Positions 639 through 59,284 of a stretch of 64,000 nucleotides of DNA are shown piece after piece. How positions within the stretch are numbered: the stretch's first letter is position 1; each line of letters opens with the position of its first letter. Position numbers and translations under genes: made by a program. Source of the DNA: Xanthostigma xanthostigma (Eukaryota; Arthropoda; Insecta; Raphidioptera; Raphidiidae); contig OY754465.1 of assembly GCA_963575645.1 (NCBI GenBank), forward strand, positions 6,944,001 through 7,008,000. Direction: 5' to 3'. Below the pieces are notes generated by a model, which worked only from the letters and a program-made list of their open reading frames with translations, was not told the origin of the DNA and made no database searches.

Positions 639-1380
639 TCTATACTAATATATAAAGCTGAAGAGTTTGTTTGTTTGTTTGGTTGAACGCGCTAATCTCA
701 GAAACTACTGGTTCGAATAGAATTTTTTTTTGTTGTTGGATAGCCCATTTATCGAGGAAGGCTATAGGCTATATAATATCACGTTACGACCAATTGGAGC
801 GGAACATCAATGAAAAATGTTGCAAGATGTATCTCAAAATTAGTCCGTCCGACAAATATTATCAGGTGAAATGCCTTAACTAAATATTGCAATATTAGCG
901 CGTGACGATCACAAGCCCGGAAGGCTCACTCGGTAGAGCGTAAGACTCTTAATGCCAGGGTCTTGGGCTCAAGCCCTACGTCGGCGAATATATTTTTATT
1001 TTTTTTATTTTCTACATTGCTTTCTTTTAAGGCTTACATTTCAATTTTTTAAAATTTTATTACAACTAATTAAAATTAAATAAATCTAATTAATAGCTCA
1101 TTTGAAAACTGTTACAACTATAGGTAGGTACCTACCTATATAAAAATAATTTTTCTACAGTGTTTTCAATTAAATATTTATTACATTACAAGAAATTTAT
1201 TACTTAAAAAAAGTATAAATACTGCTTTATAACGACAAAAACTGTTGAACGGTAACTCCGATCATCATAAAGTTTGGACACAACATTCATCTCGGTAAAC
1301 TAAGATGAATGGGCCTACTCATGTCCCTTCTTTCCCTATTCGTTTTTTTGCACCCGGATGAAACCGGGCGGGACCGCTAG
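639..1380 (+). mobile_element. Non-autonomous Helitron with tRNA-Lys module (copy 1)
   Basis: The element begins TCTATACTAATATATAAAGC and ends with a CCCGG-ATGAAA-CCGGG hairpin followed by GCGGGACCGCTAG. It sits between A (638) and T (1381), the Helitron target. (TTTG)n follows the 5' end, and a tRNA-Lys-like module lies at 915-986. It has no Rep/helicase coding capacity, so it must move in trans. It belongs to the longer subfamily of about 700-740 bp, shared with 3210, 39254 and 58546. Confidence 0.85.
915..986 (+). ncRNA. tRNA-Lys-like pol III module in Helitron copy 1
   Basis: These 72 bases follow a tRNA-Lys body: GCCCGG start, D-arm CTCACTCGGTAGAGC, anticodon loop CTCTTAA (anticodon CTT) and T-arm with a B-box-like GGGCTCAAGCCC. 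The anticodon stem is mostly mismatched, so a functional tRNA is unlikely. A TTTTT run follows at 993, as in a pol III terminator. A tRNA-derived promoter module is more likely than a gene. Confidence 0.7.
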
Positions 1381-1478
1381 TAGATTATTATAAACGCCGA
1401 AGTCATAAGCGTCTGTAAGTTCCAGCTTTGATTTTAATGATTAAAAAACACTTTTTTTCTTGTTTTTAAGAAATTTTT

Positions 1479-1771
1479 CTTCATACCTCGGTCGGCACCA
1501 ATTTTAATTCAAAAAGTCTGACATTTATGCATTGGTGGGATTCCACGCACTGATGCCGGAAGTACGTACTTTCGACCGGCTATAAAAAAAATAGTTATCG
1601 TGTACACCGCTCCATGAGACTGTCGCTACTGCCGCCAGCCAATCGTCGCGAGCAGCTGTCATTCGTGTTTTTACGTATAACCTCAAAGCTGCTTGCTTGG
1701 AACTTATCTATGTTTTATATTATTAATTAATTAGTCTATTTAATAAGCGTACTTTAGACCGCGATATGAAG
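1479..1771 (+). mobile_element. MITE with CTTCATACCTCGGTCG termini
   Basis: The left end CTTCATACCTCGGTCGG is mirrored by CGCGATATGAAG at the right end. Related copies lie at 9622-9952, 10743-11031, 42184-42656 and 42675-43000. All carry the internal motif GTACGTACTTTC and the segment 'cgtataacctcaaagctgc' or a close variant. It is non-coding; the superfamily is not assigned. Confidence 0.6.
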
Positions 1772-1776
1772 AAATG

Positions 1777-1870
1777 TGGTAGGTATACACCACACGGCCA
1801 GAAGGTTTGAGAGCCTTCAACTGCGCAGTGCAAGAATCTCAAACTTCCTGCCCTTGTGGTGTAACATATT
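1777..1870. mobile_element. Short palindromic MITE (ACCACA...TGTGGT)
   Basis: The arms TATACACCACACGGCC and GCCCTTGTGGTGTAACATA form a hairpin directly abutting the previous MITE. The same pairing recurs at 9483-9618 and 43005-43141, so the two elements may form one composite unit. Confidence 0.5.
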
Positions 1871-1989
1871 ATTTTTAAATAAATTCACAATGTCATTACT
1901 AAAGATGTTATGAATCCGTTCATAAAAAAATAAATAAAAACTTTAGTGGGGAACAAGAAGTATCAACAAAATATCGTAATACCATACAA

Positions 1990-2407
1990 ATCTTTGATTA
2001 AAATCTTTGATTAACGTCTGAATAGAACTCTTCAAGTAAATAAAATTGTCGACCAATTTTTCTCAGACCATACGATATATTGACAAAAATGATAAAAATA
2101 CAAATCAATATAACACAAGATGACGTTTCGATCCGGATTTGGATCTTCTTCAGAAATATCTAAAAAATATAAAAATTAATTAATTAATTAAATTTTTTTT
2201 TTTTTTTTTTGAATCATTCAAAGTTTTAATCCTGCGTGAAATCTATTACTTAATACTAATTAATTTTTATATTTTTTAGATATTTCTGAAGAAGATCCAA
2301 ATCCGGATCGAAACGTCATCTTGTGTTATATTGATTTGTATTTTTATCATTTTTGTCAATATATCGTATGGTCTGAGAAAAATTGGTCGACAATTTTATT
2401 TACTTGA
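1990..2407. repeat. Perfect inverted repeat, Penelope-like end
   Basis: The arms 2032-2180 and 2259-2407 are reverse complements over about 149 bp with no difference I can see, and a spacer of about 78 bp holds a T-run. Left-flank sequence (CTTTGATTAACGTCTGAATAG) recurs at 25314 and 52910. Each arm contains CTGAAGA...GAAACGTC, a hammerhead-like core known from Penelope-like retroelements. I infer a head-to-head pair of such element ends; no reverse transcriptase is present. Confidence 0.55.
2286..2317 (+). ncRNA. Hammerhead-ribozyme-like core
   Basis: In order the sequence reads CTGAAGA (fits the conserved CUGANGA), A, GATCC, loop AAATCC, GGATC, then GAAA and CGTC. GATCC/GGATC pair as stem II and GAAA is the second conserved strand. 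The extra A before stem II and the very short stem III resemble hammerheads described in Penelope-like elements. The mirror copy is at 2122-2153 on the minus strand, and a decayed version is at 25410-25441. Cleavage activity is not shown. Confidence 0.45.
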
Positions 2408-2530
2408 ATCGTAATACCATGTTAAAATGATATTTCTCAAACAGCATGGGACACACTGTATATGAAATGGCAATGTTACTATGACGATGATTTATAATCC
2501 AAATAATCTTTCAGTATTTACAGAATTTCA

Positions 2531-3014
2531 TATACAGATTGTATCAAATCAAAACGGTCCATAGGACATTGCGTGTGTAAGACAGAGACGATATATAAAG
2601 ATCTAAAGCAGTAAGTAAGAATGAGATAAATGATCGCTAATATAGTTACTGTGGTTACGTAAATAAATAATTACGTACACTGTAAATCTTTTTACCAACT
2701 TATCAATTAAAACAACTACAAATAAATTTATTATGTTGGCGAATTACCACCATAAAACCATTTAATTATTTGGATTTTTTCCCGAACAGTATAAATAATA
2801 AATCAATAATTTTACTAGTGAATACTGACATTTGATTAAATTGTGATTTTTACTGTAGAAAACAAAGACGATACTATCAGATTGTATAACCACAGTAACT
2901 ATTAGCGATCATTTATCTCATTCTTACTTACTGCTTTAGTGCTTTATATAATATCGTCTCTGTCTTACACACAGAATGTTCTATGGACCGTTTTGATTTG
3001 ATACAATCTGTATA
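2531..3014. mobile_element. TA-flanked MITE with ~127-bp terminal inverted repeats
   Basis: The arms 2531-2657 and 2886-3014 are near-perfect inverted repeats starting TATACAGATTGTATC. The interior is unique AT-rich sequence. The ends fit a TA target duplication, suggesting a Tc1/mariner-type MITE, but there is no coding remnant. Confidence 0.6.
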
Positions 3015-3209
3015 TATTACTCGACTGAAGAATGTCGTCACCTTTCAACCCTATCTTTTCAGCTCATTCGATTAGAGTTATACTGCATTTATCTTCGTTC
3101 TAATATCCCACATTCCTGACTCATGTATTGGTGAATGTTCCGAACTCGTTCTTAAATAGGTCACCTCGATCGTTATGAAATTCGTTTAGTATATTAAAGA
3201 ACAAATCTA

Positions 3210-3771
3210 TCTATATACTAATATATAAAGCTGAAGAGTTTGTTTGTTTGTTTGTTTGAACGCGCTAATCTCAGAAACTACTGATTCGAATTGAAAATTT
3301 TTTTTTGTTGGATAGCCCATTTATCGAGGAAGGCTATAGGCTATATAGTATCACGCTACGACAAATTGGAGCGGAACATAAATGAAAAATGTTGCAAGAT
3401 GTAGCTCAAAATTAGTCCGTCCGACAAATATTATCAAGTGAAATGCCTTAACTAAATATTGCAATATTAGCGCGTCACGTTCACAAGCCCGGATAACTCA
3501 GTCGGTGGAGCGTAAGACTTTTAATGCCAGGGTCTTGGGTTCAAGTCCCACGTCGGCGAATATATTTTTATTTTATTTATTTTCTACATTTTTTCTTCTA
3601 AGCCTTACATTTCAATTTTTTTAAATTTTATTACGACTAATTAAAAATACATATTTATTATATTAAGAGAAATTTATTACTAAAAAAAGTATAAATACTG
3701 ATTTTTAACGACAAAAATTTTTGAACGGTAGGTAACTCCGATCATTATGAAGTTTGGACACAACATTCATC
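3210..3771 (+). mobile_element. Helitron with tRNA-Lys module, 3' truncated (copy 2)
   Basis: The TCTATATACTAATATATAAAG start and internal sequence match copy 1. The element breaks off at 'cacaacattcatct' and runs straight into the minisatellite at 3772, so the CCCGG hairpin and CTAG end are missing. The tRNA-like module is at 3487-3558. Confidence 0.75.
3487..3558 (+). ncRNA. tRNA-Lys-like module (anticodon loop CTTTTAA)
   Basis: The GCCCGGATAACTCAGTCGG start, GGTTCAAGTCCC B box and a T-rich tail at about 3566 are kept. The anticodon would read TTT (Lys) rather than CTT, and its stem is mismatched. It is part of the Helitron at 3210. Confidence 0.65.
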
Positions 3772-4020
3772 TGTGAAAAGGGGAGAGCGTTTGGGGGGAG
3801 TTTTTTAAAAAACAATTACGGGGTCGTGTCGATGGGATGACTTTTTTTTGCGCAGTAAAAGGGGGAGCGTTTGGGGGGAATTCTTTAAAAAACAATTACG
3901 GGGGCGTCTCGATGCGATGACTTTTTTTGTGCAGTAAAAGGGGGAGGCGTTTGAGGGAAGTTCTTTAAAAAACAATTACGGGGTCGTATCGATGTGATGG
4001 CGTTTTTTTTGCGCAGTGAA
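3772..4020. repeat. Minisatellite, ~80-bp unit, three copies
   Basis: Three units each contain GCGTTTGGGGGGAGTT-type sequence, TTTAAAAAACAATTACGGGG and CGATG(T/C/G)GATG, ending in GCGCAGT. The same unit occurs at 61914-62120 and, inverted and diverged, at 15848-16068. It directly follows the broken Helitron, so it probably belongs to a second element inserted there. Confidence 0.7.
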
Positions 4021-4724
4021 ATAATATTTAGTAGGTATATACTTATAACACCGTATGGTTTTACACTACACACTACAGAAATGAAACTTATACGCAAAAT
4101 CTATGTGCGTCTGGCAGACAATGACTAGTTAGTGATCTGGAACGTAATAAAAGTACAATATGAACGTCGTCCGACAAACAGCTGATACACTCAAAAATAT
4201 ATAATTTCTGTTTCGCATAATTTTAAGAAAATTTTCTAAGAACACGTTAGTACCTACAAACAGTTACAAAAATATGTTAATAGTAAAAATAAATTTTTAG
4301 AATTACTCAGAAAACGAATATTCAATTTGAAACATTATTTTGCTGAAAAATTTACGAGAAGCTTAACTTGATCAAATCAATTAAGTTCAAAATCGAATAT
4401 TTACGAATAGAAAAATTAAACACAAACTGACACATAAGAGTGATGTGAAAAGTACTCTTTTTTCCGAATAATATAAAAAATGTAATTTGTTTTGGTTTTT
4501 ATGTTACGTTGTAACGTTATAGTTCCGCATTTTGCAGAATAATAAATGAAAACTCATTTATATTATTTTTTTAGCTTTAGAACACGGCAACTGAATCTAA
4601 AACGTAGCTACATTTTATAGTATTTCATTTCCTGTCTGAATGTTTCTCTTTTTGATATGCGTTTATTTATAATTAAAATGTACAATTTAATATAAATGTC
4701 ATCGTATTCGTTTGAAATAATTTA
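4021..4724. other. AT-rich intergenic, nothing recognised
   Basis: There is no repeat shared with the rest of the window, no inverted termini and no coding signal that I can see. Confidence 0.4.
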
Positions 4725-5322
4725 TCTATACTAATATATAAAGCTGAAGAGTTTGTTTGTTTGTTTGTTTGAACGCGCTAATCTCAGGAACTACTGGTTC
4801 AAATTGAAAATATTTTTTTTATTGGATAGCCCATTTATCGAGGAAGGCTATCGGCTATATAAAATCAGGCTACGACCATTAGGAGCGGAGCATTAATGAA
4901 AAATGTTGCAAAATGTATCTCAAAAATAAGCTTCTATTCAGGTGAAATGCACTAACTAAATATACTCATATTAGCGTTGTCAGATTACAACGCCGGCTAG
5001 CTCAATCGGTAGAGTACACGACTGCCAATACCAAGGTCGCGGGTTCGAGCCCTACGTTGGGCGAATATATTTTTATTTTTTTTTTTATTTTCTACGTTGC
5101 TTTCTTCTAAGGCTTACATTAATTTAATTAATTTAAAAAAAAATATTAGTTAAAAAAAGTATAAATACTGCTTTTATCGACAAAAAATTTTGAACGGTGA
5201 CTCCGATCATCATGAAATTTGGACACAATATTCATCTCGGTAAACTAAGATGAATGTGTGTACTCATGTTCCTCCCTTCCCCATGCGTTCTTTTACACCC
5301 GGGTGAAACCGGACGGGACTAG
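4725..5322 (+). mobile_element. Helitron with tRNA-like module, short subfamily (copy 3)
   Basis: TCTATACTAATATATAAAGC start, CCCGG/CCGG hairpin, CTAG end, A before and T after. It lacks the ~140 bp that copies 1 and 4 have downstream of the tRNA module, placing it with 41185 and 53261. The tRNA-like module is at 4991-5063. Confidence 0.85.
4991..5063 (+). ncRNA. tRNA-Lys-like module, altered anticodon loop
   Basis: The body GCCGGCTAGCTCAATCGG...GGGTTCGAGCCC...GTTGGGCG is strongly tRNA-Lys-like. The anticodon loop reads CTGCCAA (formally GCC), and neither anticodon stem nor the top of the acceptor stem pairs fully. A and B boxes and a downstream T-run remain. Confidence 0.65.
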
Positions 5323-5340
5323 TTATTTTATATTGCAAAA

Positions 5341-5949
5341 AATTGGTTGTCTGTAAAGTCGGTTTACGGACGATAGTTTTTCGTGATAACGTATTCCGTA
5401 ATACATAACCTAAATTTATATAATAATTATAATAATTCGAATCTATGATATTGCATCTTTCGCTTCAAATTTAGGTTAATTTTATTTATTTAAATTACTC
5501 ACCATATAATATAATTGTTTTTTTTAACTTTCTTTCTTTCGTATTTATTTTAAGTCTCAAAGATTAGCTGTCATAATATTTATAAAACAATTGTTTCACT
5601 GTTTATATAAAATTCCAAAACCTACTTACAATATTTAAGTATTTTCATACGTCAAAAAATTGATTTTTATAATGATAAAAAATGTAAGAAAACGATTTTT
5701 TCGAGTGATGAGACCTAGCTAAAACGATTTTTTGCCCCCCAAAATCCCTTTTCAGTAAATTTCATCCAAATCGTTAGGGCCGTTTTCGAGAAAAGCACGC
5801 ACAGGGTCAGGCGGAACGTTAGGAACGCTACGAACGATACGACCGTTACGACCGTTAGGAACGTTACACTTTTTCGTACATGCAGCCGGTGTTTTATCAA
5901 TTTATAAGATTGGTGATTCATCAATTTATAAGACGTTATCACGTCAAAA
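5341..5949 (+). mobile_element. ~600-bp dispersed repeat with GTGATAACG ends
   Basis: Near-duplicate of 37041-37634; fragments at 7599-7672 and 8133-8308. The right end ACGTTATCACGTCAAAA is roughly the inverse of TTTTTCGTGATAACGT near the left end, so it may be a MITE with short inverted repeats. A variable AACGTTAGGAACG-type microsatellite lies near the right end. Open frames across it are not conserved as protein. Confidence 0.6.
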
Positions 5950-6669
5950 GAACAAGAAATATTTATACTCTCGTATAACAAAATTCGACAAAAGTGAATC
6001 GTCGATATTCTTACGAAATGCCCATATTTAGATTTAAATACGATGACAGCTATACATAACCTCAAAAAAAATGATAATTGACCAAGACAACCCAATATAG
6101 CTGACATCTATATGAATACAATCTGCTATTTCGTATAATATACAGTATGTTTAACATTTGGATGGACCACTTTGATTTTTTTCAAAGCGTACATTTAAAT
6201 TTGCGGTCACTTGTACAATTTCATCAAAGCAAAACAAAATACTAGATTCCGTACGTATTTTGTTTTTGCGTTTGCGAATATAATCCATAAAGACGCTAGT
6301 GTCGTAAAGCATTATATTCCGACGAGGTGTGACATTATGTTTATAACGAGATCCAGCGAGTAATGTATACTAAAAATAAGGTTATTTTATTATTTATACA
6401 AAATCCGGCCGATAGGGCCGGACTTACAAATTTCAAGAATACACTAATTTGTGGATATGACATAATTAATTTTCTGATTGAAGTATTATAATAGTATTAT
6501 AAATATTGCAATTACAAAAAAACGTATTATTTTAAGGGTTGCATTAAGAGGTTAATTTTTTTTATATTTTGACCAAATAGTTTAATTCACACTATTTTGG
6601 ATCTGGTTTTCTATTAACTCGATTCGTACCTAATATGGTTATAAATAGTAAAGATTGTAAAAAAAAGCC
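5950..6669. other. Intergenic, one small hairpin
   Basis: CCGGCC-GATAG-GGCCGG at 6405-6421 is the only structured item. Otherwise AT-rich, without recognised genes. Confidence 0.4.
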
Positions 6670-7120
6670 ACACTGTCTGTAATAGCAAATACACTATATT
6701 GTCGGCAGGGTTTGGCACTGCGACCCGAGTTTTCGAAGTAAAACTTCTTTACGCACGTTTGACTTGGGGAGTAAGCTGGTGAATGCGTGACGAGAGCGTT
6801 ACGAAAAGTGTGACAGGGAGCGTTACGAAAAGTGTGATCAGGCGAGGCAGTTACGTTTCGTATATCTAAGACACAGTGCAGGCCCATTGTCTGTATCACA
6901 CTGTAGGAGCAAGAGAGAGCAGTGCGCGCGCATATTTTCTTTATCTCTTCCTCTCATAGCCAGTGCATGAAATATATATATATCTCAGTCAGTAGTTCGT
7001 TTGCCAGTTTGCTAGCGTTACGCGAACGGTGATTTCTTACATGTATATATTATACATATGTAAACATATATATAGATGAAACTAAAGAAGTTTTACTTCA
7101 GTCGTGTGGTCTAAAGCACA
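6670..7120. repeat. Repeat with GAAGTAAAACTTC inverted ends
   Basis: GAAGTAAAACTTCTTTA (6735-6751) and TAAAGAAGTTTTACTTC (7083-7099) are inverted repeats. The segment before the left one (GACAATATAGTG side, 6682-6722) recurs inverted at 58413-58500 and 62925-62995, and the right end recurs at 48397-48450. The interior has AT microsatellite and CG-rich (GCGCGC) patches. Family unassigned. Confidence 0.5.
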
Positions 7121-7598
7121 CTCGTTTTTTTTAATCTTATTAATAGTTTGAAACAATAGAGTCTTGTCTGCTTTATTAAATCCGAAATTAAACAAACCCA
7201 CAGCTTGTCATATTTTAAATGTAACAACTTTTAGTATGAGTTTAACACTTAATTTAATAATATCACAGGTGATTTATAAGCCAGGTAATGTTTATAAATT
7301 TTAATTGCAAATAAAATATGATTATATAGTAAAACAGTTCCCAACGCGTTCAGGTCACCATTAATTTTTCCTCTTTCCCTACGCAATATACGTCGGAGCT
7401 AGGCGAAACAGTGAAAGTTTAGACATTAAATGAACAGATATGTATACAGGCTGTACTGGAAATAACAACGAATATAAACTATAACACTATGAAAGTCCGA
7501 ATTGAAAAGTCCTGATCTTCGAGACTGTCAAATAATTAATTACTAAAGTATAAATATTAAGAGCACTCTGGTTGAAACAAAAATACAAAAAAAAAAAA
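7121..7598. other. AT-rich intergenic, nothing recognised
   Basis: No shared repeat, hairpin or coding signal was found here. Confidence 0.35.
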
Positions 7599-8308: not shown

Positions 8309-8343
8309 AAACAGTTGTGTGGTTTTAAGAACCCACGACGCAA

Positions 8344-17741: not shown

Positions 17742-18399
17742 CAGGGGTCGGCAACCCGCGGCCCGAAGCCCTATACCTTGCGGCCCGTGACTGTTTTATA
17801 AATAAAAGTCTTATATACCTACCTACATAAATAAATAATTAAAATAATTTTCACAAACCCGTTTTCTTGTGATATTGAGGATGTACCCAGTCATTTACAA
17901 ATGAACGTGATTGAGGTCCAATCTAATGATAGTCTCAAAAACTCTTCCTTTGAAATCAAAGATCTTGTTAAATTTTATGGCTGTTTGCTATCTAATTTTG
18001 ACGAATTGAAAAGGTTTGCTCTGCAATTAATTACAATTTTTGGTAGTACTTACATATGCGAACAAACCTTTTCGATTCTCAATTACAGAAAAAATAAATA
18101 TTCTTCTCGTCTCACAGATTAGCATTTGAGAGCCATTCTACGAATTGCAGCTACAAACCTGGAAGCTAATATACAACAAATAGCCACTCAAATACAACCT
18201 CAAACGTCACACTAATTTTTGTAAAAGAATAGTATTATTTTGAAGTTCTTAGTTAAATTTTTAATAAAATTCAAATAAAATGTTTTCGAATTTTTAACAT
18301 CACAAATACCTATTATTAAAATTATGAACAAGTGCGGCCCGCCTTTATTTCAATTTGCCACTATGTGGCCCTTGCTTCCCAAACGGTTGCCGACCGCTG
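17742..18399 (+). mobile_element. Internally deleted hAT transposon with 8-bp TSD
   Basis: The ends CAGGGGTCGGCAACC and GGTTGCCGACCGCTG are inverted repeats of hAT type. CAATAGAT flanks both sides (17734-17741 and 18400-18407), a perfect 8-bp target duplication. The 658 bp retain GCGGCCC-rich subterminal sequence and only the C-terminal part of the transposase. A complete hAT would be several kb, so this is a deletion derivative. Confidence 0.88.
17835..18215 (+). pseudogene. hAT transposase C-terminal fragment
   Basis: The frame reads FTNPFSCDIEDVPSHLQ, then FGSTYICEQTFSILN, K-N-K-Y-S-S-R-L-T-D, a TAG stop (18120-18122) and, in the same frame, HLRAILRIAATNLEANI. FGSTY.CEQ.FS followed by K...R..LTD.HL is the hAT C-terminal dimerisation region as in GTF2IRD2/SCAND3/ZBED-type proteins. 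The DDE core, BED finger and upstream ORF are missing, and the stop interrupts the LTD-HL motif. A TAA upstream at 17832 limits the frame. Confidence 0.85.
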
Positions 18400-19686: not shown

Positions 19687-20113
19687 TTAAGAGTATTCGT
19701 CCCTGCAAACAACCCTTGCACCCTTCATCTCAAATCTTTTCCCCTCGCCTAAAAACGGTTCGCGCTCTCCCGACGCTATTTTTAAAGCTAGAGGGTTCTG
19801 GCAAACGCCAAATGAAAGACAAAGAATCAGACTACAGATCCTTCAGGCGAATTTTTTGAAAAACAATTTCGCCTACGTGTGAAATATTACGTAACTTATT
19901 ATTTTTTGCAAAAGGTTGTAAGTTTTTTCAGGATTTTTTTTCAAAAAATTCGCCTGAAGGATCTGTAGTCTGATTCTTTGTCTTTCATTTGGCGTTTACC
20001 AGAACCCTCTAGCTTTAAAAATAGCGTCGGGAGAGCACGAACCGTTTTTAGGCAAGGGGAAAAGATTTGAGATGAAGGGTGCAGGGGGTATTTGCAGGGA
20101 CGAATACTCTTAA
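19687..20113. mobile_element. TTAA-flanked foldback MITE (copy 1)
   Basis: TTAAGAGTATTCGTCCCTGC and its reverse complement bound about 160-bp arms with a loop of about 110 bp. TTAA borders both ends, suggesting piggyBac-type integration. Copy 2 is at 30881-31305. An open frame through one arm of copy 2 (30868-31053) reflects the repeat rather than a gene. Confidence 0.7.
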
Positions 20114-30880: not shown

Positions 30881-31305
30881 TTAAGAGTATTCGTCCCTGC
30901 AAACACCCCCTGCACCCTTCATCTCAAATCTTTTCCTCTCGCCTAAAAGCGGTTCGCGCTCTCCCGACGCTATTTTTAAAGCTAGAGGGTTCTAGTAAAC
31001 GCCAAATGAAAGACAAAGAATCAGACTACAGACCCTTCAGGCGAATTTTTTGAAAAAAAATATTTGAAAAAACTTACCTTTTGAAAAAAATAATAAGTTA
31101 CGTAATATTTCACACGTAGGTGAAACTGTTTTTCAAAAAATTCGCCTGAAGGATCTGTAGTCTGATTCTTTGTCTTTCATTTGGCGTTTACCAGAACCCT
31201 CTAGCTTTAAAAATAGCGACGGGAGAGCGCGAACCGTTTTTAGGCGAGGGGAAAAGATTTGAGATGAAGGGTGCAGGGGGTGTTTGCAGGGACGAATACT
31301 CTTAA
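30881..31305. mobile_element. TTAA-flanked foldback MITE (copy 2)
   Basis: Same ends as copy 1 (TTAAGAGTATTCGTCCCTGC) and TTAA on both sides. The loop sequence is the reverse complement of the copy 1 loop; since the arms are symmetric, insertion in opposite orientation explains this. Confidence 0.7.
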
Positions 31306-39253: not shown

Positions 39254-39959
39254 CTAGCAGTCCCGCCCGGCTTCACCCGGGTGCAAAAGAACGAATGAGG
39301 AAGGAAGGGACATGAGTTTACCGAGATGAATGTTGTGTCCAAACTTCATATAATGATCGGAGTTACCGTTCAAAAGTTTTTGTCGTTAAAATGCAGTATT
39401 TATACTTTTTTTTAGTAATAAATTTCTTTTAATATAATATATATTAAATTGAAAATGATGTAGAAACATTGTTTTTATATAGGTACCTATAGTTGTAACA
39501 GTTTTCAAATGAGCTATTAATTAGATTTATTTAATTTTTATTAGTCGTAATAAAATTTTAAAAAATAGAAATGTAAGCCTTAGAAGAAAGCAATGCTAGA
39601 AAATAAAAAAAAATAGAAACGTATTCGCCGACGTGGGGCTTAAACCCAATACCCCGGCATTAAGAGTCTTACGCTCTACCGACTGAGCTATCCGGGCTTG
39701 TGAACTTGACGCGCTTCTATTGCAATATTTAGTTAAGGCATTTCACTTGATAATATTTGTCGGACGAACAAATTTTAAGATACATTTTGTAACATGTTCC
39801 GCTCCAATTGGTCGTAGCGTGATATTATATAGCCTATAGCCTTCCTCGATAAATGGACTATCCAACAAAAAATGTTTTTTCAATTTGAACCAGTAAGTTT
39901 CTGAGATTAGCGCGTTCAACCAACCAAACAAACTCTTCAGTTTTATATACTAGTATAGA
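39254..39959 (-). mobile_element. Helitron with tRNA-Lys module (copy 4)
   Basis: On the minus strand, TCTATACTAGTATATAAAACTG start (39959) and CTAG end (39254) with CACCCGGGTGAAGCCGGGCG hairpin; flanked by A and T as required. Long subfamily. tRNA module at 39626-39697. Confidence 0.85.
39626..39697 (-). ncRNA. tRNA-Lys-like module (anticodon CTT)
   Basis: Read on the minus strand: GCCCGGATAGCTCAGTCGG, loop CTCTTAA, and GGGTTTAAGCCCCACG. The A box is intact; the B box has one change (GGTTTAAGCC). The anticodon stem is mismatched in the same way as copy 1, so the decay predates their divergence. Confidence 0.68.
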
Positions 39960-41184: not shown

Positions 41185-41745
41185 CTAGCGGTCACGCCCG
41201 GTTTCACCCGGATGCAAAAGAACGAATGGGGAGAGGGGGAGATGCATGAGTACGCACATTCATTCAAAGTTTCTGTCGATAAAAAGCAGTATTTATACTT
41301 TTTTTAATTAATATTTTTTTTTATTAATTAGATAGAATTAAAATAAATTTCAATGCAAGCCTTAGAAGCAAGCAATGTAGAAAATAAAAAAAAATCAAAA
41401 TATATTCGCCCAACGTTGGGCTCGAACCCACGACCTTGATATTGACAGTTGCATGGTCTACCGATTGAGCCAGCCGGGGTTGTATACTCACAACGCTAAT
41501 ATGAGTAAGTATATTTAGTTAGTGCATTTCACCTAAATAGAAGCTTATTTTTGAGATACATTTTGCAACATTTTTCATTAATGCTCCGCTCCTAATGGTC
41601 GTAGCGTGATATTATATAGCCTATAGCCTTCCTCGATTAATGGCCTATCCAACAAATTTTTTTTTTTCAATTTGAACCAGTAGTTCTTGAGATTAGCGCG
41701 TTCAAACAAACAAACAAACTCTTCAGCTTTATATATTAGTATAGA
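41185..41745 (-). mobile_element. Helitron with tRNA-like module (copy 5, short)
   Basis: Minus strand: TCTATACTAATATATAAAGC start at 41745, CCGGATGAAACCGG hairpin and CTAG at 41188-41185; A/T flanks correct. About 561 bp, short subfamily. Confidence 0.85.
41407..41479 (-). ncRNA. tRNA-Lys-like module, loop CTGTCAA
   Basis: Minus strand: CCCCGGCTGGCTCAATCGG, loop CTGTCAA (formally GTC), GGGTTCGAGCCCAACGTTGG. Good B box; anticodon stem largely unpaired. Confidence 0.65.
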
Positions 41746-43704: not shown

Positions 43705-43795
43705 TTTTTAACAGCGTGTAAAAATCAAATAGACGAACAAATGTTTCAAGTAACTTTTTTCTTTAAACTCAAAAATGACAGAGAAACAGTCTTTC
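43705..43795 (+). repeat. Solo arm fragment of the 18426 foldback
   Basis: AGCGTGTAAAAATCAAATAG and GACAGAGAAACAGTCTTTC match one arm of 18426-19570, at about 18795-18885. Confidence 0.6.
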
Positions 43796-43833
43796 AAAGT
43801 TGTGGTAAGAAGTAACTATTCTATATTTTTTAT

Positions 43834-44325
43834 TTTTAACCGACTTCAACAAAAAGGAGGAGGTTCTATGTTCGTCTGTATATTTTTTTTTTTATTATGT
43901 ATCTCCACCAATTTCTCCGTCAATTGTGGACCGATTTTCATTTTTTTTTTTTATTCGAAAGAGTGTACCTCAGAGGTGGTCCCATCGGAACCAAGTCAGG
44001 ATCTGATGGTGGAATCCGGAGAAATCGAGGGAAACTCGCAAATTTCAAAGGCACGCATAATGTTTTTTATGTATGTTCACCGATTATTAGTGTTAGATTA
44101 ACACTAAAAAGAGAAAAATAAAATATTTTTAACAGAAAAATTGAACCGACTTCACACTAAAAAGTAAAAAATAATTGCGTATTAAAGTGTTTTGAAGTCG
44201 GTGTAGTTCTCGGAATAGATTTCATTTTGGCTGACACCGACTCCAAAACATTTCAATACGCAATTATTTTTTACTTTTTAGTGTGAAGTCGGTTCAATTT
44301 TTTTGTTAAAAATATTTTTTGTTTC
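43834..44325 (+). mobile_element. AACCGACTTC foldback repeat (copy 1)
   Basis: AACCGACTTCAACAAAAAGG...GGAGGAGGTTCTATGTTCG opens the element; a conserved block (CGGAACCAAGTCAGGATCTG, GGAGAAATCGAGGGAAACTC) follows; then a hairpin with GTCGGTG arms carrying CTAAAAAGTAAAAAATAATT. Copies at 51833 and 56855. Open frames are not supported as protein. Loop orientation here matches copy 3. Confidence 0.7.
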
Positions 44326-44718: not shown

Positions 44719-45132
44719 CTACAGTAAATAAATTATTCAGATTCAATCATTAAAAAAACGTATGCATCTTGCTTTCTACTTTATTTAAAAAAAAAAGAAA
44801 CTCGCTCCACCCAACAGGTTAAAGTTTTATATTTAAAATACCCCAAAGAGAGATTTACCTGGCGTGTGAAATTCTCAAATAAAGGAGTGTGGCTTAAAGA
44901 GTGAATTCCAGAGAAGTATGGTATATATATGCATTCATCCCAGGAGATCATAAATATTTAGGTGAAGAAGGAGAAGATATCTTGACGTATAGCGATTTTC
45001 ATGTCTGAAGTAATTTGTGCTTTGATACATACGATTTACTGTGCACGACTTTAGACATTTCTACAAAAAAATCGTAATCTCTTTACCTTGTATTTCAAGT
45101 CAAATTTTATTTACTTCAAAATAATTAATTTT
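44719..45132. other. Intergenic, nothing recognised
   Basis: ACTCGCTCCACCCAACAGG near 44800 and otherwise AT-rich. No gene recognised. Confidence 0.3.
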
Positions 45133-45472
45133 CCAGTTTCACCCGGGTGCAAAAGAACGAAAGGGGGGAGGAGGGACATGAGTACGCACATTCATCTTAG
45201 TTTACCGATATGAATGTTGTGTCCAAATTTCATGATGATTGGAATTACCGTTCAAAAGTTTTTGTCGGACGGACAAATTTTGAGACACATTTTGTAACAT
45301 TTTTCATTGCTCCGCTCCTATTGGTCGTAGCGTGATATCATATAGCCTATAGCCTTCCTCGATAAATGGGCTATCCAACATAAAACATTTTTTTTAATTC
45401 GAACCAGTAGTTCCTGAAATTAGGGCGTTCAACCAAACAAACAAACTCGTCAGTTTTATATATTAGTATAGA
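45133..45472 (-). mobile_element. Helitron lacking the tRNA module (copy 6)
   Basis: Minus strand start TCTATACTAATATATAAAAC at 45472; the CACCCGGGTGAAAC hairpin half remains but the CTAG end is lost. About 360 bp including the tRNA module are deleted between two TTTGTCG direct repeats. Confidence 0.75.
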
Positions 45473-47012: not shown

Positions 47013-47472
47013 TATAAAACAAAGTCCCCCCGCCGCGTCTGTCTGCCTGAACGCGATAAACTCAAAAACTACCGAACGGATTTTCATACGGTCTTTACTA
47101 ATAGAAAAAGCGATAAACGAGGAAGGTTTTTGTATATAATTTTGTACAAAATGTCTCAACTATGACGGTGTTTTTACAAAAAAAGAAAACTGTTTTTGTA
47201 CGCTTGGCTACATCAAAACAATAGGTACTTTGATAGTTTTGCTGTAGATTGGAAGGTTAATATAATATATATTAGATAATAATTAATAAGAAAAAATTCG
47301 CAGGTTTGTGGACAAAAGTTATATTTATAAATGTACGACGTTTCGTCTATAAATTTATAGACGAAACGTCGTACATTTATAAATATAACTTTTGTCCACA
47401 AACCTTCTTATTGGTTAATATAATATTTCCAGAACAGTTTTGCGCCCGGGTGAAACCGGGACAGGACGCTAG
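47013..47472 (+). mobile_element. Helitron relic of another family, palindrome-bearing
   Basis: The left part (CCGCCGCGTCTGTCTGCCTG, AACGCGATAAACTC, ACCGAACGGATTTTCA) is a well-known insect repeat start. The right end has CGCCCGGGTGAAACCGGG and CTAG then T. The 5' TC is lost at the foldback junction, and the palindrome 47302-47405 is inserted. Confidence 0.6.
47302..47405. repeat. 104-bp perfect palindrome, Penelope-like ends
   Basis: AGGTTTGTGGACAAAAGTTA... on the left is exactly mirrored to ...ACAAACCT on the right, centred at 47353/47354 without a spacer. Each arm ends inward with TACGACGTTTCGTCTATAAA, so both strands carry GACGAAACGTCG as at 24250. This fits two Penelope-like element ends joined head to head. 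Confidence 0.75.
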
Positions 47473-51832: not shown

Positions 51833-52382
51833 TTTTTAACCGACTTCAAAAAAGGAGGAGGTTATATGTTCGTCTGTATATATATGTTTATTTTTTTATG
51901 TATGTTCACCGATTTCTCCGTCAATTATGGACCGATTTTCAAATTTATTTTTTTATTCGAAAGAGTGCACTTCCGAGATGGTTCCATCGGAACCAAGTCA
52001 GGATCTGATGATGGAATCCGGAGAAATCGAGGGAAACTCTCAAATTTCAAAGGCACGCATAATGTTTTTTTTTATGTTTCACCGATTTCTCCGTCAAATA
52101 TCTAACACTAAAAAGAGAAAAATAAAATATTTTTAACAAAAAAATTGAACCGACTTCAAAATATGCACTAAAAAGTAAAAAATAATTGCCTATTGAAATG
52201 TTTTGGAGTCGGTGTCAGCCAAAATGAAATCTATTCCGAGAACTAGAGACATGTAAGATTTAAATTGCTACTTTCGAATTCCGATGTGACACCGACTCCA
52301 AAACATTTTAATACGCAATTATTTTTTACTTTTTAGTGCATATTTTGAAGTCGGTTCAATTTTTTTGTTAAAAATATTTTAT
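51833..52382 (+). mobile_element. AACCGACTTC foldback repeat (copy 2, loop inverted)
   Basis: Colinear with copies 1 and 3 in its left part and arms. The hairpin loop (52216-52287) is the reverse complement of the loop at 57215-57286 while the outer sequences keep the same orientation. Confidence 0.72.
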
Positions 52383-53260
52383 TACTGTAACTTTACGTAC
52401 ATGAACAATCAACAAGTTCTGCAAAGTATCCTATTGATGATATAAAATAAATTTAAAAGGTTAACGATCATTTTCTCTGACGTTATTATTACAACAATGC
52501 ACTCATTTACTGACTTTTCTTTGTTTGACAATTTTCAAACGCAGTGAAAGAAGCCACTTTTCAAGTTCTATTAATACTGAAATGAAATTCGTGCCGAAAT
52601 TGTTTTAAATTCAAAGAAACAGTAGGCTGTGGTTCCTTTATCATTTCCACTTCGAAATTTTAATTATTCTATTTTGCATTTCAAATATATGAAGATAACT
52701 GAGATAGAGTACGAAAGGGATTATTTCAAAGATTCTGACGAAATATTGTTTAACTGTAAGGGCACTTGTTAACGACCGTTTTAGTCAACGGGTAACGGGC
52801 CGACGCGAAACGGTTACCTTTGTACACGATCCGCTAATATACGTGAGCGCGTCCGTTGTTATCGATATCAGTTCTATACTTGAAGGGCGAAGAAGTGCAA
52901 GTATGTTATTCAAATCTTTGATTAACGTCTGAATAGAACTATTCAAATAAATATTATTTATTTGAAAAAGTACGTTATGCCTTGCTTGTTTATTTTTGTA
53001 ATTTTCTAAAGTCTTGTCCCAACACTGTCTGTAATCGAATCTTACAAGTTAAATTTAACCCACTTCCAGTTATCCGATTGAGCTGAAATTTTGCATACGT
53101 ATGTAGCTTCGAGAACAATACAATATTATAATAACTAACTTACGATTCCGGCTTTCGTCCGGTTGAAAATCGCACTTTTAACGACTTCGCGTTGCCGATT
53201 GAGTTAAAATTTGGCATACGATTTCTATCATAAATTTTCTGGACAGAAAATTATTTAGTA
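52383..53260. other. Intergenic with Penelope-like fragment
   Basis: 52908-52965 (CAAATCTTTGATTAACGTCT, GAATAGAACTATTCAAATAA) matches the left edge of 1990-2407. Two CGATTGAG(C/T)(T)-AAAATTT(T)GCATACG segments (about 53075 and 53190) look like an old duplicated repeat. Confidence 0.4.
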
Positions 53261-53822
53261 CTAGCGGTCCCGTCCGGTTTCACCCGGGTGTAAAAGAACG
53301 AATGGGGAAGGGAGGAACATGAGTACACACATTCATCTTAGTTTAGCGAGATGACTGTTGTGTCCAAATTTCATTATGATCGGAGTTACCGTTCAAATTT
53401 TTTGTCGATAAAAAGCAGTATTTATACTTTTTTTAACTAATAAGTTTTTTAAATGTAAGCCTTAGAAGAAAGCAATGTAGAAAAAAAAAAAATATATTCG
53501 CTTAACGTGGGGTACGAACCCACGACCCTGATATTGACAGTCGCATGCTCTACCGACTGAGCCAGCCGGCGTTGTGTACTCACAACGCTAATATGAGTAT
53601 ATTTAGTTGGTGCATTTCACACGAATAGAAGCGTTTTTTTGAGATACATTTTGCACATTTTTCATTAATGCTCCGCTCGTATTGGCCGTAGTGTGACATT
53701 ATATAGCCTATAGCCTTTCTCGATAAATGGGCTATCCAACAAAAATTTTTTTTCAATTTGAACCAGTAGTTCAACCAAACAAACTAACAAACTCTTCAGC
53801 TTTAAGTATATATTAGTATAGA
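53261..53822 (-). mobile_element. Helitron with tRNA-like module (copy 7, short)
   Basis: Minus strand: start TCTATACTAATATATACTTA at 53822, hairpin CACCCGGGTGAAACCGG, CTAG at 53264-53261; A/T flanks. 562 bp. Confidence 0.85.
53499..53571 (-). ncRNA. tRNA-Lys-like module, loop CTGTCAA
   Basis: Minus strand: CGCCGGCTGGCTCAGTCGG, TAGAGCATGCGA, loop CTGTCAA, GTGGGTTCGTACCCCACG. T-arm pairs perfectly (CGTGGG-TTCGTA-CCCACG). The loop matches 41407 rather than copy 1, defining a second lineage. Confidence 0.67.
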
Positions 53823-54231
53823 TTAGTATTATTCAGTTGATTTTCAAGGTCGTCTGATATCACAAACAAAATAAGTAATTGTAATTTTTTTATATTTCCT
53901 TGTTTCTGCCATTCAGTAAAGAAACAAATCAATTATTCTTTTTCCATATTATGTATTCGTAATAGGGCCATGTTAAATTTCGATAAAGGGACAAATCCGG
54001 GAATTTTGAGGCAATAAAGGTTCACTTATATACTAAAAATCGGAACTGTATCTGCGGTTTTAATTCCGAATATATATTCCACATAACGAGTCGGCTGTGA
54101 CAAATGCGTGCGGTTAGTACACATGCGAAAATGTTCCTTTGCGCAGCATTTAATTGTCATTCTCTACATTTCATTTATAGAGATACTAAATATACAAGGT
54201 ACAATGACAACCACGTTACTGTTGTCTATTA
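53823..54231. other. AT-rich intergenic
   Basis: ACGAGTCGGCTGTGACAAAT (about 54087) relates to segments at 56489 and 58117. Nothing else recognised. Confidence 0.35.
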
Positions 54232-54786
54232 TTTATAAAATAAATATATATCCAATTTAAAATTGCACCAGCAGTACGTACAAAGCCGTAAACTAAATAT
54301 ATTTCCGAGATTTTAGAAAAAAAAGGCAATTATGTTTTACTCTCGAGATCACTATGTAGTGCTGTTTTATTTATAAAATAAATATATATCCAATTTAAAA
54401 TTGCACCAGCAATACGTACAAAGCCGTAAACTAAATTTATTTCCGAGATTTTAGAAAAAAAGGCAATTATGTTTTACTCTCGAGATCACTATGTAGTGCT
54501 GTTTTATTTATAAAATAAATATATATCCAATTTAAAATTGCACCAGCAGTACGTACAAAGCCGTAAACTAAATTTATTTCCGAGATTTTAGAAAAAAAAG
54601 GCAATTATGTTTTACTCTCGAGATCACTATGTAGTGCTGTTTTATTTATAAAATAAATATATATCCAATTTAAAATTGCACCAGCAGTACGTACAAGACC
54701 GTAAACTAAATTAATTTCCGAGATATTAGAAAAAAAAACGGCAATTATATCTCATGTTATACTCTCGAGATCACTATGTAGAGCTG
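54232..54786. repeat. 138-bp tandem array, four units
   Basis: TTTATAAAATAAATATATAT starts at 54232, 54370, 54507 and 54645. Units share GCACCAGCAGTACGTACAA and CTCTCGAGATCACTATGTAG, and differ at only a few positions; the fourth is the most diverged. Satellite-like. Confidence 0.9.
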
Positions 54787-54789
54787 AGG

Positions 54790-55140
54790 TCAAAGGTTCC
54801 CAAATTTATTTGGCCATGAAACCCTAATTGATCATACTTTTTTGGCGGTACCTTAGCTGGCTATTTTGAAAACTAAAGTGTTTACCTTATAGTTTGAATA
54901 TTTTCATGTTAGACTCGAAAAAAGAACAATTTATAAATGAAAAATAATTACCTATTAATTATTATTATAAGTATTGCAAAACATTTATTGTAACAAAGAA
55001 ACACAATGTAACTATTTAACGTGAAGAACGAATTTTTTTCACATTTTATTTAACTCTCGGACAGACCGCGGAACCCATGTGACCCTTCCAAGGAACCCCA
55101 AGGTTTCGCGGTCCACCTTTTAGGAATCGTTCACTAGGTA
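54790..55140. mobile_element. hAT relic (AAAGGTTCCCAAA ... GGAACCCC)
   Basis: AAAGGTTCCCAAATTTATTT at the left and GGAACCCCAAGGTTTCGCGG toward the right resemble the subterminal GGTTCCCAAAC/GGAACCC sequences of hAT MITEs. Exact ends and target duplication are not clear. Non-coding. Confidence 0.4.
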
Positions 55141-55427
55141 ACACCACAATTCAGATAATAAACTAAGAGAACTGATAACTTTGGGGCCGTCTCACGTCAC
55201 ATTATGTCATAATGTTCCTTGTGCGCTCACAGTTCAGACGCCTTTTTTGTTTCAACGTTTTTTACACAAATAAAGAGTTATTTAGTTTTTGATGATATTT
55301 ATCAAACATTGTTTTTTCCACATAGGTATGTGTTTTAGATCAGCTCTAAATATCTCGAGAGCGAAACATTTAATATAAATGATCGAGCGAAGCTTAACCA
55401 CAATTATATCTATAGTTTTGCACGAAG
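55141..55427. other. Intergenic, nothing recognised
   Basis: No feature supported. Confidence 0.3.
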
Positions 55428-56330
55428 AAACCAAACTTTGGGAGGATATTTGATACGCAAATATAAAGAGCCCTATTGTATTTGGGGAAAATGCTATAAC
55501 GGTGTTTATATATAATAATGGCATATTTTTCATAACGACTTATTTATTCTATTTATTTTTTCAAGAAAGTTTTGTTAAATTTTTTTTTTCTAAACCTTAT
55601 AGTTTCGGAAATATTTTGAAAATAAAAAAAAATCAGCCGCTCTTTTGTTTTATGGATCTGACAGAAATAAACAAGTTCGGCATGCTTTGATTAATTTTTA
55701 CATGATGTAGGTAACCATGGCAACGAGTAGCAAATATTATATTGAATACTAGCCATCATCCGCGTCACCTCACGCGATATCAAAAATTTTATTTTCTTTA
55801 TTATAATCAAATGTCGACATTTTTTAAGTTGGAATGATCCCGTCGCCCAATAGGTCATATGCATGAGATTCCAAATTGGTTTAAATTTTTATTTTGAAAT
55901 ATATTTTAGTACCTGATCATATCGTAATGGTTATTTTATTAATCTAATCACTGAAAAAAAATACAAATAATAAACAAGAAATGTAGAAAATACGCGCTAT
56001 TTTCGAGTTATCAAAACGCAACGTGACGTCAGAGTATATATCAACAACAATTTCCATGACGACTGAAAGAAAACAACAAATAAACTTCATTTAGAACATT
56101 GACAATTTGACATCAAGGTTGACATGCATCGTATATCATGACGTCACAAGCCCGCCAACATGGCCGATTGTTTAAACTGTCTATTTTTGAATGTGAAATT
56201 TAATATGTTTTTTCTTATGATAATATTACATTTTTAAATAATTATTAATTTTTTTCCGTATTATGGTTGACTAAATAATCAATTAAAATTATAAAAAAAA
56301 TACATGCATATGACCTATTGGCTGTAATTT
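55428..56330 (+). repeat. Dispersed repeat, filled-site copy
   Basis: Parallel to 13690-14147 up to GTCGCCCAAT (55851), interrupted by the MITE 55852-56316, and resuming with TTGGCTG before similarity ends. Confidence 0.65.
55852..56316. mobile_element. MITE with AGGTCATATGCATG ends, precise insertion
   Basis: AGGTCATATGCATG and CATGCATATGACCT are perfect 14-bp inverted ends. Comparison with the uninterrupted CCCAATTGGC at 14134 implies a 2-bp AT duplication. Contains a facing pair of TGACGTCA sites (56024, 56139), as in the unrelated-ended MITE at 35411. Confidence 0.78.
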
Positions 56331-56854
56331 TTTCCTTGCTGAAGTATATACCATCCAGGGAAAGCTTTCGCAATTCACAATATTTCTGACTATTTAATTT
56401 AAAAAGAATAATGAAATCATTGAGTATTTAAGTCAAACAGATTTCATTGTTCTCCGAGTTGTGACATTATAACGCATTGCCAGGATGACGAGTCGACTCT
56501 GACAATTGTATGTGATTGGTAGACCAGTGAAATGGTACCCACAAAGTGAATTTAATTACCATGCTGCGAGTTTCGCTACAAACGCATTCTTGCGGCTTGT
56601 GGGGCATATATTGTGTGATTTACCATCAGAATGTAGTCATCTTTTTAGGAATACACCAGCTGTGTAATTTCAGAGCACACGTTCATATACGACCTTCTTT
56701 ATGTCTTAATTGTATACAATGTGTTTGATTTCAACGAACATAGTGCAGTTACGTGTTAAATATCTTTATTTGATTTACATTATTGCAAATTACTTTAAAT
56801 AAATATATTCAGCCCAAAAAATTGTGACAACGTTAATTTTGACAGTAAATCATA
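56331..56854. other. Intergenic, paralogous to 57960-58230
   Basis: ACGAGTCGACTCTGACAATT and TTTAATTACCATGCTGCGAG recur with changes at 58117-58205, suggesting an old duplicated repeat. No gene recognised. Confidence 0.4.
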
Positions 56855-57384
56855 TTTTTAACCGACTTCATAAAAGGAGGAGGTTCTATGTTCGACTGTA
56901 TATTTTGTTTTTATGTATGTTCATCGATTTCTCCGTCAATTATGAACCGATTTTTAAAATTCTTTTTTTATTCGAAAGAGTGCACTTCCGAGGTAGTCCC
57001 ATCGGAACCAAGTCAGGATCTGATGGTGGAATCCGGAGAAATCGAGGGAAATTCTCAAATTTCAAAGGCACGCATACTTGGCCTACCCATTGCAATACTT
57101 TATCTAACACTAAAAAGAGAAAAATAAAATATTTTTAACAAAAAATTGAACCGACTTCAAAATATGCACTAAAAAGTAAAAAATAATAATTATTGTTATT
57201 TTTGGAGTCGGTGTCACATCGGAATTCGAAAGTAGCAATTTAAATCTTACATGTCTCTAGTTCTCGGAATAGATTTCATTTTGACTGACACCGACTCCAA
57301 AAATAACAATAATAAAATTATTATTTTTTACTTTTTAGTGCATATTTTGAAGTCGGTTCAATTTTTTTGTTAAAAATATTTTTT
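56855..57384 (+). mobile_element. AACCGACTTC foldback repeat (copy 3)
   Basis: Same left block as copies 1 and 2. The hairpin arms differ near the loop (ATAATAATTATTGTTATTTT instead of AATTGC...), and the loop 57215-57286 is in the copy 1 orientation. Confidence 0.7.
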
Positions 57385-57502
57385 AAAACATGTTTTTTAA
57401 TATAACGACTTTCAAAGTTAGCCTAGGATTTTATTCTTTAATACAACGCCAAACAAATAAAAATATTTAGCATGTAAAGTCAAATTAAATGCACCAAAAA
57501 AT

Positions 57503-57677
57503 AATTTTTAAATATAATGGTTTCGTTCAACAGCGACAGGATGTCCCCAAACCCGATGTAATTTAATATTTTGAGTGAGCTTAGAAGGCGAATTGTTTAT
57601 TAAAAAAAATAAATTATATCGAGGTGGGGGGACATCATATGCTGTTGAACAAAATCGTTATATTTAAAAATTATCTT
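57503..57677. repeat. Foldback with CAACAG / CTGTTG arms
   Basis: TTAAATATAATGGTTTCGTTCAACAG pairs (split here: TTTCGTTCAACAGC with GCTGTTGAACAAAA), including GGATGTCCCC / GGGGGACATC. Short centre. Confidence 0.65.
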
Positions 57678-57699
57678 TTCACTTTTTAGTGCAAATTGC

Positions 57700-58545
57700 T
57701 ATAAAAGCGTGTTTTTTAGTTTTTTTAAATTGTCTCATTAAAAACTATGCCCACGGGTAGGCAACGCAACGTATAGCGGCTCGTTATCTTGCTTACAGTG
57801 ATTTTTGAAGTTAAGTAATCAATTTAAATAAATTATATATTTGAAAATATTTATATATTTCTATAAATTATTGTATTGTCATCAATTGTTAATACGTGTG
57901 CAAAATTTCAAATTATTTAGACGTCTAAAACTGGATGAAAATTGATTTGAAAGATTTCATTACATACAATGATTCTTTAAATTAAAGCTTCAGTATGTGT
58001 TTTTAGAAACGTATTCGTCATGCTGCTCTTGGGTGTCAGAGATTGTAAACGTTCAATAACTAAGGTCATTAGTATCTGTCACATTCTATGATTTAACGTT
58101 ACAAAGTAATGCCAACCTAACGAGTCGACACTGACAATTCGATGCGGTTGGCAAACCTGTGAACGTGTGCCTCTACACAGAGAGTTTAATTACCGTGCTG
58201 TGGGATTCATTACAGTAGCTTCTTTTGTGTCGCACTGCGTGTGCTAACAGAAAATTTTCAGAAAAATGTATTCCAGTTGGGAAAATCATATCGTTTAGAT
58301 ACAACATGTTTAATACATTTACGTTTTCCAAGTGTAATTTACCTATACATAGTATGTAGACAAATATACTATTAAACAGCGAAAAAATGAATGGAAAAAT
58401 TGAAGAGTTAACATTTTAGTACAAAAAAAAAAACTCGAGTCGCAGTGCGAAACCCTGCCGACAATATAGTGTATTTGCTAACACAGGGAGTGTGACTTTG
58501 TTTAGTGAACTTAACACTTGTTTTTGGACAAAATAAAAAATGTAA
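57700..58545. other. Intergenic with repeat fragments
   Basis: AAAGCGTGTTTTTTAGTTTT (57703) is shared with 49562. 58117-58205 parallels 56489-56570. 58413-58500 is an inverted fragment of the 6670 repeat (CTGCCGACAATATAGTG). No gene recognised. Confidence 0.4.
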
Positions 58546-59284
58546 TCTATACTAATATATAAAGCTGAAGAGTTTGTTTGTTTGTTTTTTTGGTTGGTTG
58601 AACGCGCTAATCTCAGACACTACTGGTTCGAAATGAAAAAATTTTTTTTTGTTGGATAGCCCATTTATCAAGGAAGGCTATAGGCTATATAATATCACGC
58701 TACGACCAATTGGAGCGGAACATTAATGAAAAATGTTGCATGATATATCTCAAAATTAGTCCGTCCGACAAATATTATCAGGTGAAATGCCTAAATATTG
58801 CAATATTAGCGCGTTGGGTTTACAAGACCGGATAGCTCAGTCGGTAAAGTGTACGACTCTTAATGCCAGGATCTTGGGTTCAAGTCCCACGTCAGCGAAA
58901 ATATTTTTATTTTTTTTTATTTTCTACATTGCTTTCTTCTAAGGCTTACATTTTAATTTTTTAAAATTTTATTACGACTAATTAAAATTAAATAAATCTA
59001 ATTAATAACTCATTTGAAAACTGTTACAACTATAGGTACCTATATAAAAATAATTTTCCTACAGTGTTTTCAATTAAATATTTATTATATTAAAAGAAAT
59101 TTATTACTTAAAAAAAGTTTAAATACTGCTTTTTAACGACAAAAACTTTTGAACGGTAACGCCGATCATTATGAAGTTTGGACACAACATTCATCTCGGT
59201 AAACTAAGATGAATGTGCGTACTCATCTCCCTTCCTTCCCCATTCGTTTTTTTGCACCCGGGGGAAACCGGGCGGGACCGCTAG
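58546..59284 (+). mobile_element. Helitron with tRNA-Lys module (copy 8)
   Basis: TCTATACTAATATATAAAGC start, CACCCGGGGGAAACCGGG hairpin, CTAG end, A/T flanks. 739 bp, long subfamily, very close to copy 1. Confidence 0.87.
58826..58897 (+). ncRNA. tRNA-Lys-like module (anticodon CTT)
   Basis: GACCGGATAGCTCAGTCGG, loop CTCTTAA, GGTTCAAGTCCC. A and B boxes match pol III consensus, with T-run at about 58903. The acceptor stem has an A in place of C at position 2. Confidence 0.68.

Follow-up and report, generated by a model that had tools for sequence, protein, structure and literature searches.

The 64-kb window analyzed here, a stretch of 64,000 nucleotides (nt) from contig OY754465.1 of the insect Xanthostigma xanthostigma, holds eight related non-autonomous Helitrons. 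These elements carry Helitron termini at separate insertion sites, and seven of them contain, at a common internal place, a module that descends from tRNA-Lys and has decayed. A preliminary description of this DNA had proposed a Helitron family that carries a tRNA-Lys-derived sequence along as it spreads, and this part of the proposal is supported here.

Eight related Helitrons in the window

The eight copies are listed below, labeled according to subfamily (A or B), with the copy that lacks the module labeled N.

639..1380, forward strand: copy A1; TC start after host A, CTAG end before host T; with module
3210..3775, forward strand: copy A2; TC start after host A; 3′ end lost, without CTAG; right border approximate; with module
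4725..5322, forward strand: copy B1; TC start after host A, CTAG end before host T; with module
39254..39959, reverse strand: copy A3; TC start after host A, CTAG end before host T; with module
41185..41745, reverse strand: copy B2; TC start after host A, CTAG end before host T; with module
45132..45472, reverse strand: copy N; TC start after host A; without module; 3′ part cut in the terminal-hairpin region, without CTAG
53261..53822, reverse strand: copy B3; TC start after host A, CTAG end before host T; with module
58546..59284, forward strand: copy A4; TC start after host A, CTAG end before host T; with module

A 5′ TC following a host A was found in 8/8 copies, with the copy at 3210 carrying two additional bases at its start (TCTATATACT). 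The terminal CTAG, which represents CTRR and precedes a host T, is present in six of the eight and missing from the copies at 3210 and 45132; the element ends of the family are written as TCTATACTAATATATAAAGC...CTAG. The six complete copies are 561 to 742 nt in length, and each is bordered by A on one side and T on the other, as the preliminary description had stated, with no common duplication discernible by eye in the 10-base flanks. In the copy at 3210, the Helitron end gives way to a G-rich tandem repeat, the units of which include GGGGAGCGTTTGGGGGG and which extends over approximately 3774 to 4030 as judged by eye.

When the window was searched with an 18-base 5′ motif permitting at most 3 mismatches, 11 matches were recovered versus 0.53 expected, eight of which are element starts; the other three, each with 3 mismatches, are not elements. 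A core 19-mer yielded eight matches, one per copy, versus 0.00 expected. Sequence identity divides the module-bearing copies into subfamily A (639, 3210, 39254, and 58546; 91.0–93.1% identity within) and subfamily B (4725, 41185, and 53261; 90.1–90.4% within), with 81.5–85.6% identity between the two. No similarity was detected among the 300-bp flanks of the eight copies at E 1e-3, and therefore the copies look like separate insertions. The dissimilarity of these flanks also rules out segmental duplication of a single locus.

No open reading frame (ORF) of at least 75 amino acids in the window overlaps any element, and no RepHel or Helitron-like protein was found among the 10 of 56 window ORFs of this size (at least 75 amino acids) that were scanned with Pfam. 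Exact family patterns gave 0 matches in viral contigs. A scan of genome contigs returned one 20-bp match in Kordia, with nothing further of the elements in the 8000 bases around it, which we took as chance, and a phage search returned two short matches, one of which is an annotated tRNA-Asn.

A decayed tRNA-Lys module

The module occurs in 7/8 copies at the same internal place, starting 251–280 nt inside the elements, in the same orientation and between the same flanks (TCAGGTGAAATGC... and AATATATTTTTATTT...), in agreement with the count of seven given in the preliminary description. It spans 72–73 nt and matches the tRNA over nearly its full length. Scores below refer to the Rfam tRNA model RF00005, and box states refer to the promoter patterns described further on.

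915..986, forward strand: A1 module; 12.7 bits; A box with 2 mismatches, B box with 1
987..1011, forward strand: T-rich trailer behind the A1 module (T5, T8, T4), with a T-run at the like place in all seven module copies
3487..3558, forward strand: A2 module; 14.7 bits; A box with 1 mismatch, B box intact
4991..5063, forward strand: B1 module; 16.8 bits; A and B boxes intact
39626..39697, reverse strand: A3 module; 21.2 bits; A box intact, B box with 1 mismatch
41407..41479, reverse strand: B2 module; 25.0 bits; A and B boxes intact
53499..53571, reverse strand: B3 module; 28.0 bits; A box intact, B box with 1 mismatch
58826..58897, forward strand: A4 module; 18.1 bits; A and B boxes intact

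As a yardstick we used the tRNA-Lys(CTT) sequence printed in the available text of PMC8216282, which we took to be human. Local identities of the seven modules to this sequence are 57/70, 58/70, 59/70, 53/65, 58/71, 62/72, and 62/71 (81–87%), which correspond to z values of 26.7–35.9 on the basis of 1000 shuffles. The isotype comparison comprised tRNA-Lys and three other tRNAs: initiator Met and Asp remained within z −1.5 to 2.9, close to chance, and elongator Met gave z values of 8.2–12.2, as expected for a related tRNA. When both strands of the window were scanned in tiles, the seven modules scored 82–106 and the next best place scored 33. These scores, together with the z values, rule out a chance resemblance to tRNA-Lys, and the tRNA-Lys origin of the modules is firm. 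A perfect 8-bp stem, GCGTTGTG-AGTA-CACAACGC (53569–53588, reverse strand), adjoins the B3 module on its upstream side and overlaps its first bases; by eye this stem is weaker in B1 and B2 and is not seen in the A copies.

Promoter parts for RNA polymerase III (pol III) were assessed with the patterns TRGCNNARYNGG for the A box and GGTTCRANNCC for the B box. Under these strict patterns the A box is intact in 5/7 modules, the B box in 4/7, and both in 3/7 (those of the copies at 4725, 41185, and 58546). The presence of A and B boxes that had been claimed for the family therefore stands for the family as a whole but not for every copy, and intact promoters are not supported as a general property of it. 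The spacing between the boxes is 32 nt in all seven modules. The T-run of pol III terminator type that had also been noted is confirmed as at least four T residues beginning 7–13 nt behind the tRNA in 7/7 modules, although this is weak evidence by itself in DNA of 68% A+T. Runs at which a transcript could stop begin 7–25 nt behind the module. A putative pol III transcript reaching from the module start to these T-runs would cover roughly 80–95 nt of a complete element of 561–742 nt, and some copies (3/7 here) may make such short transcripts, judging from their boxes. Because a transcript of this kind would include only a minor inner part of the element and would end at internal T-runs, it would provide no template for the element, unlike SINE (short interspersed nuclear element) RNA. 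The elements are thus not SINE-like in their mode of spread, and the earlier view of a SINE-like transcription unit is not supported.

The tRNA fold itself has decayed. When a tRNA covariance check was made on the seven modules, all of the RF00005 scores (12.7–28.0 bits) fell below the gathering score of 29. In the scan of the 64-kb window only two matches reached E values of 1 or lower (0.11 and 0.77), and both are modules (41407..41479 and 53499..53571). ARAGORN reported 0 tRNA genes with default settings, and with relaxed settings it assigned inconsistent anticodons to the modules. Given the subgathering scores and the lack of default ARAGORN genes, the modules are tRNA pseudogenes. The pairs that remain number 3–6/7 in the acceptor stem, 3–4/4 in the D stem, 1–3/5 in the anticodon stem, and 4–5/5 in the T stem. 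The anticodon loop reads CTCTTAA in three of the four A copies and CTTTTAA in the other, and in subfamily B it reads CTGTCAA in two copies and CTGCCAA in one.

Proposed capture and fate of the module

Over 73 sites, no change from tRNA-Lys(CTT) is common to the reconstructed A and B ancestors, and 18 changes belong to just one of them; the reconstruction resolved ties to the tRNA state, which slightly favors zero shared changes. This pattern indicates that the gene was still nearly intact in the ancestor of both subfamilies. Combined with the common flanks on both sides, it points to one near-intact gene captured before the A/B split, and we infer a single capture event.

We consider it likely that a tRNA-Lys gene, once captured, has been decaying as a passenger in a Lep1-like non-autonomous Helitron. 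Such an element would have acquired a stretch of host DNA (about 250–376 bp in the present copies) comprising a near-intact tRNA-Lys(CTT) gene, its upstream flank, and a T-rich terminator; capture of the terminator along with the gene is suggested by the T-run located 7–13 nt behind the tRNA in every module. Rolling-circle transposition, for which an autonomous relative presumably supplied the RepHel protein in trans, would then have placed copies of the composite element at new sites between A and T, and the family would have divided into subfamilies A and B. In each subfamily the tRNA decays, with the cloverleaf broken and box mutations accumulating after insertion, and any short pol III transcripts would not be needed for transposition. 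Both the spread in trans and the passenger status of the gene are inferred here.

When the module was compared with the rest of the element, it showed no overall sign of constraint, either in alignment columns or in terminal changes. Differences between A and B occupy 16/72 columns of the module versus 42/484 columns elsewhere (p 0.0014), and terminal changes occupy 36/504 cells versus 135/3231 (p 0.006), such that the module is the faster part in both measures. Elsewhere in the alignment, the A/B count of the module is reached in 13 of 342 windows of 72 columns, and its terminal count in none. Higher mutation rates of transcribed tRNA genes are a familiar idea and could add to this faster change.

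Several observations weigh against the passenger reading. The excess of change in the module shrinks at G/C sites (A/B p 0.015, terminal p 0.052) and does not reach significance at non-CpG G/C sites (A/B p 0.14, terminal p 0.11) or at A/T sites (A/B p 0.61, terminal p 0.28); because of this shrinkage upon stratification by base, much of the faster change may be composition. The 3′-terminal 51 bases fold no better than shuffled sequences in any of the six complete copies (z −0.63 to 1.05). A 3′ stem of the CCCGG/CCGGG type with 4–5 pairs is the best fold in three of them (639, 39254, and 41185) and the other three have different best folds, the reference for a Helitron hairpin being 16–20 bp near the 3′ end. 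Furthermore, the comparison covers the eight copies of this window. Finally, the subfamily ancestors keep every box-defining base, with 0/18 internal changes breaking a box, an outcome with P of about 0.009 under a uniform change model.

This last observation favors a different account, which we consider unlikely, wherein master Helitrons keep A and B boxes that recruit TFIIIC and pol III and only dead copies lose them. The proposed benefit is that chromatin is opened, silencing is blocked, or single strands are exposed for the Rep protein. Six of 37 terminal changes break a box base, compared with none of the internal ones, and box retention in the subfamily ancestors is a hint of promoter maintenance. 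The 32-nt box spacing and the T-run are retained in 7/7 modules, and the D (3–4/4) and T (4–5/5) arms mostly hold as the anticodon and acceptor stems decay. In contrast, the internal–terminal difference has a Fisher p of 0.08, and it comes from seven copies and from a test chosen post hoc, as the selection tests in general were framed after the data had been seen. A plain count of changes inside the boxes (3 internal and 12 terminal) and outside them (15 and 25) is not significant (p 0.18). In addition, change across the module taken as a whole is faster than in the element, and copy N, which has no module, speaks against a need for it if this absence is original. Retention of the pol III promoter by active Helitrons is a live, if weakly supported, alternative, and the fuller proposal that selection keeps the captured tRNA-Lys promoter in active Helitrons, with pol III or TFIIIC aiding movement or escape from silencing, would be slightly less likely again.

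At 22 columns that differ between A and B, copy N agrees with A in 11 and with B in 10, and 21 of 315 columns are private to it; with a looser column filter it agrees with A in 14 of 23 and with B in 8 of 23. Copy N thus branches near the A/B split, a position that would fit a module never present or one lost over a 7-bp repeat. The repeat in question, CGACAAA, borders the acquired stretch at either end in 4/4 A copies and occurs once in copy N; the stretch between the repeats measures 364–376 nt in three A copies and 280 nt in A2. For a random junction in copy A1, the chance of a match of at least 7 bases is 0.002. Nevertheless, the repeat is weak evidence for a duplication because the B copies lack the left CGACAAA and one further occurrence lies elsewhere in copy A2. 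It may be a duplication that arose when the stretch was captured, or it may mark a later loss of the module in N.

The same repeat, with its low chance probability, would also suit the insertion of a tRNA-Lys-headed SINE into a Helitron that then spread with it, although we regard this as improbable. SINEs begin at the tRNA head. Here the left repeat lies 53–58 nt upstream of the tRNA start, and T-runs follow directly behind the tRNA, where the body and tail of a SINE would stand. The absence of the left repeat from B and the recurrence of the motif in A2 also count against such an insertion, as does the tiled scan, which found no such module outside the Helitrons in the window. Moreover, the module ancestor equals tRNA-Lys at 73 sites save for private changes, whereas the identity between PxSE1, a tRNA SINE of Lepidoptera, and its tRNA is given as 64% in the available text of PMC8010984. 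Finally, that the Helitron spreads working tRNA genes is hardly credible, since the CTT anticodon retained in three of the four A copies (TTT in the fourth) is set against the absence of any ARAGORN gene, seven RF00005 scores below the gathering score, broken anticodon and acceptor stems, and an altered anticodon loop in the B copies.

Other features of the window and comparison with known systems

Elsewhere in the window, a Pfam match that falls below the curated cut-off (E 0.0021) marks positions 17835–18119 as the likely remains of a hAT transposase C-terminal domain. Long inverted repeats, either like miniature inverted-repeat transposable elements or simple hairpins, lie at about 2055–2410 (by eye), 19816–19984, 30962–31222, and 47294–47412, and they give microRNA-family matches far below Rfam gathering scores. 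Three segments (43754–44098, 51840–52133, and 56849–57124) share a reading frame with the near-identical peptide SKECTSE.VPSEPSQDLM.ESGEIEGNSQISKARI and represent an unnamed dispersed repeat.

The closest counterparts of the family are found among the Lep1 Helitrons of Lepidoptera. We presume a likeness in 5′ sequence to the 134-bp Lep1 consensus, which by itself would suggest a lepidopteran host. In the portions of PMC4038834 (Guo et al. 2014) available to us, Lep1 elements are described as starting with 5′-TC, inserting between A and T, and consisting of a common part followed by acquired 3′ sequence that ends in CTRR. The present elements are similar in their TC start, CTRR-type end, target sites, short non-autonomous form, and division into common and acquired parts (PMC4038834). 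They differ in carrying a tRNA-Lys gene in the acquired part and in measuring 561–742 bp rather than the 190–445 bp given in that text. However, families called Lep1 reach about 10 kb according to the accessible sections of PMC3789558, and therefore length is no firm difference.

Other mobile elements that contain tRNA-derived modules are of different kinds. Helenus likewise has such a module in a non-SINE element, with hymenopteran families that align with tRNA-Lys-CTT, but according to the main text of PMC10886601, in which the word Helitron does not appear, it is a long terminal repeat (LTR) retrotransposon with the module in its LTRs. Lepidopteran tRNA SINEs such as PxSE1 resemble the present family in having tRNA-derived A and B boxes within a repeat family, as described in the available text of PMC8010984. 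They are built of a 5′ tRNA part, a body, and a tail and depend on the reverse transcriptase of long interspersed nuclear elements, whereas the module here is internal and the ends are those of Helitrons.

A tRNA gene as Helitron cargo is rarely described. Captured gene fragments in silkworm Helitrons were found by BLASTX, and the main text of that study does not contain the word tRNA (PMC3789558). Among the matches listed in a search of the literature on Helitrons with tRNA or pol III, which covered sources other than subscription journals and Repbase, there was no published Helitron with a tRNA-Lys module. The family described here may be the source of some of the tRNA pseudogenes in genomes of this kind, and it lets the retention or loss of a captured pol III promoter by a DNA transposon be examined. 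A related case is a tRNA-Cys gene cluster of Arabidopsis, annotated as a Helitron, for which the authors raise the capture of non-coding RNA; as stated in the portions of that 2023 paper available to us, most Helitron studies report protein-coding cargo only, and a captured non-coding RNA would be the first (PMC10701932). The two cases are alike in that tRNA genes lie within DNA annotated as Helitrons (PMC10701932). The Arabidopsis cluster consists of tandem copies, and according to the same text none of three Helitron finders made a reliable prediction across its tRNAs. In contrast, the present family is dispersed and has intact ends in six of its eight copies, and with a tRNA-Lys gene inside it offers a clean case of non-coding RNA capture.

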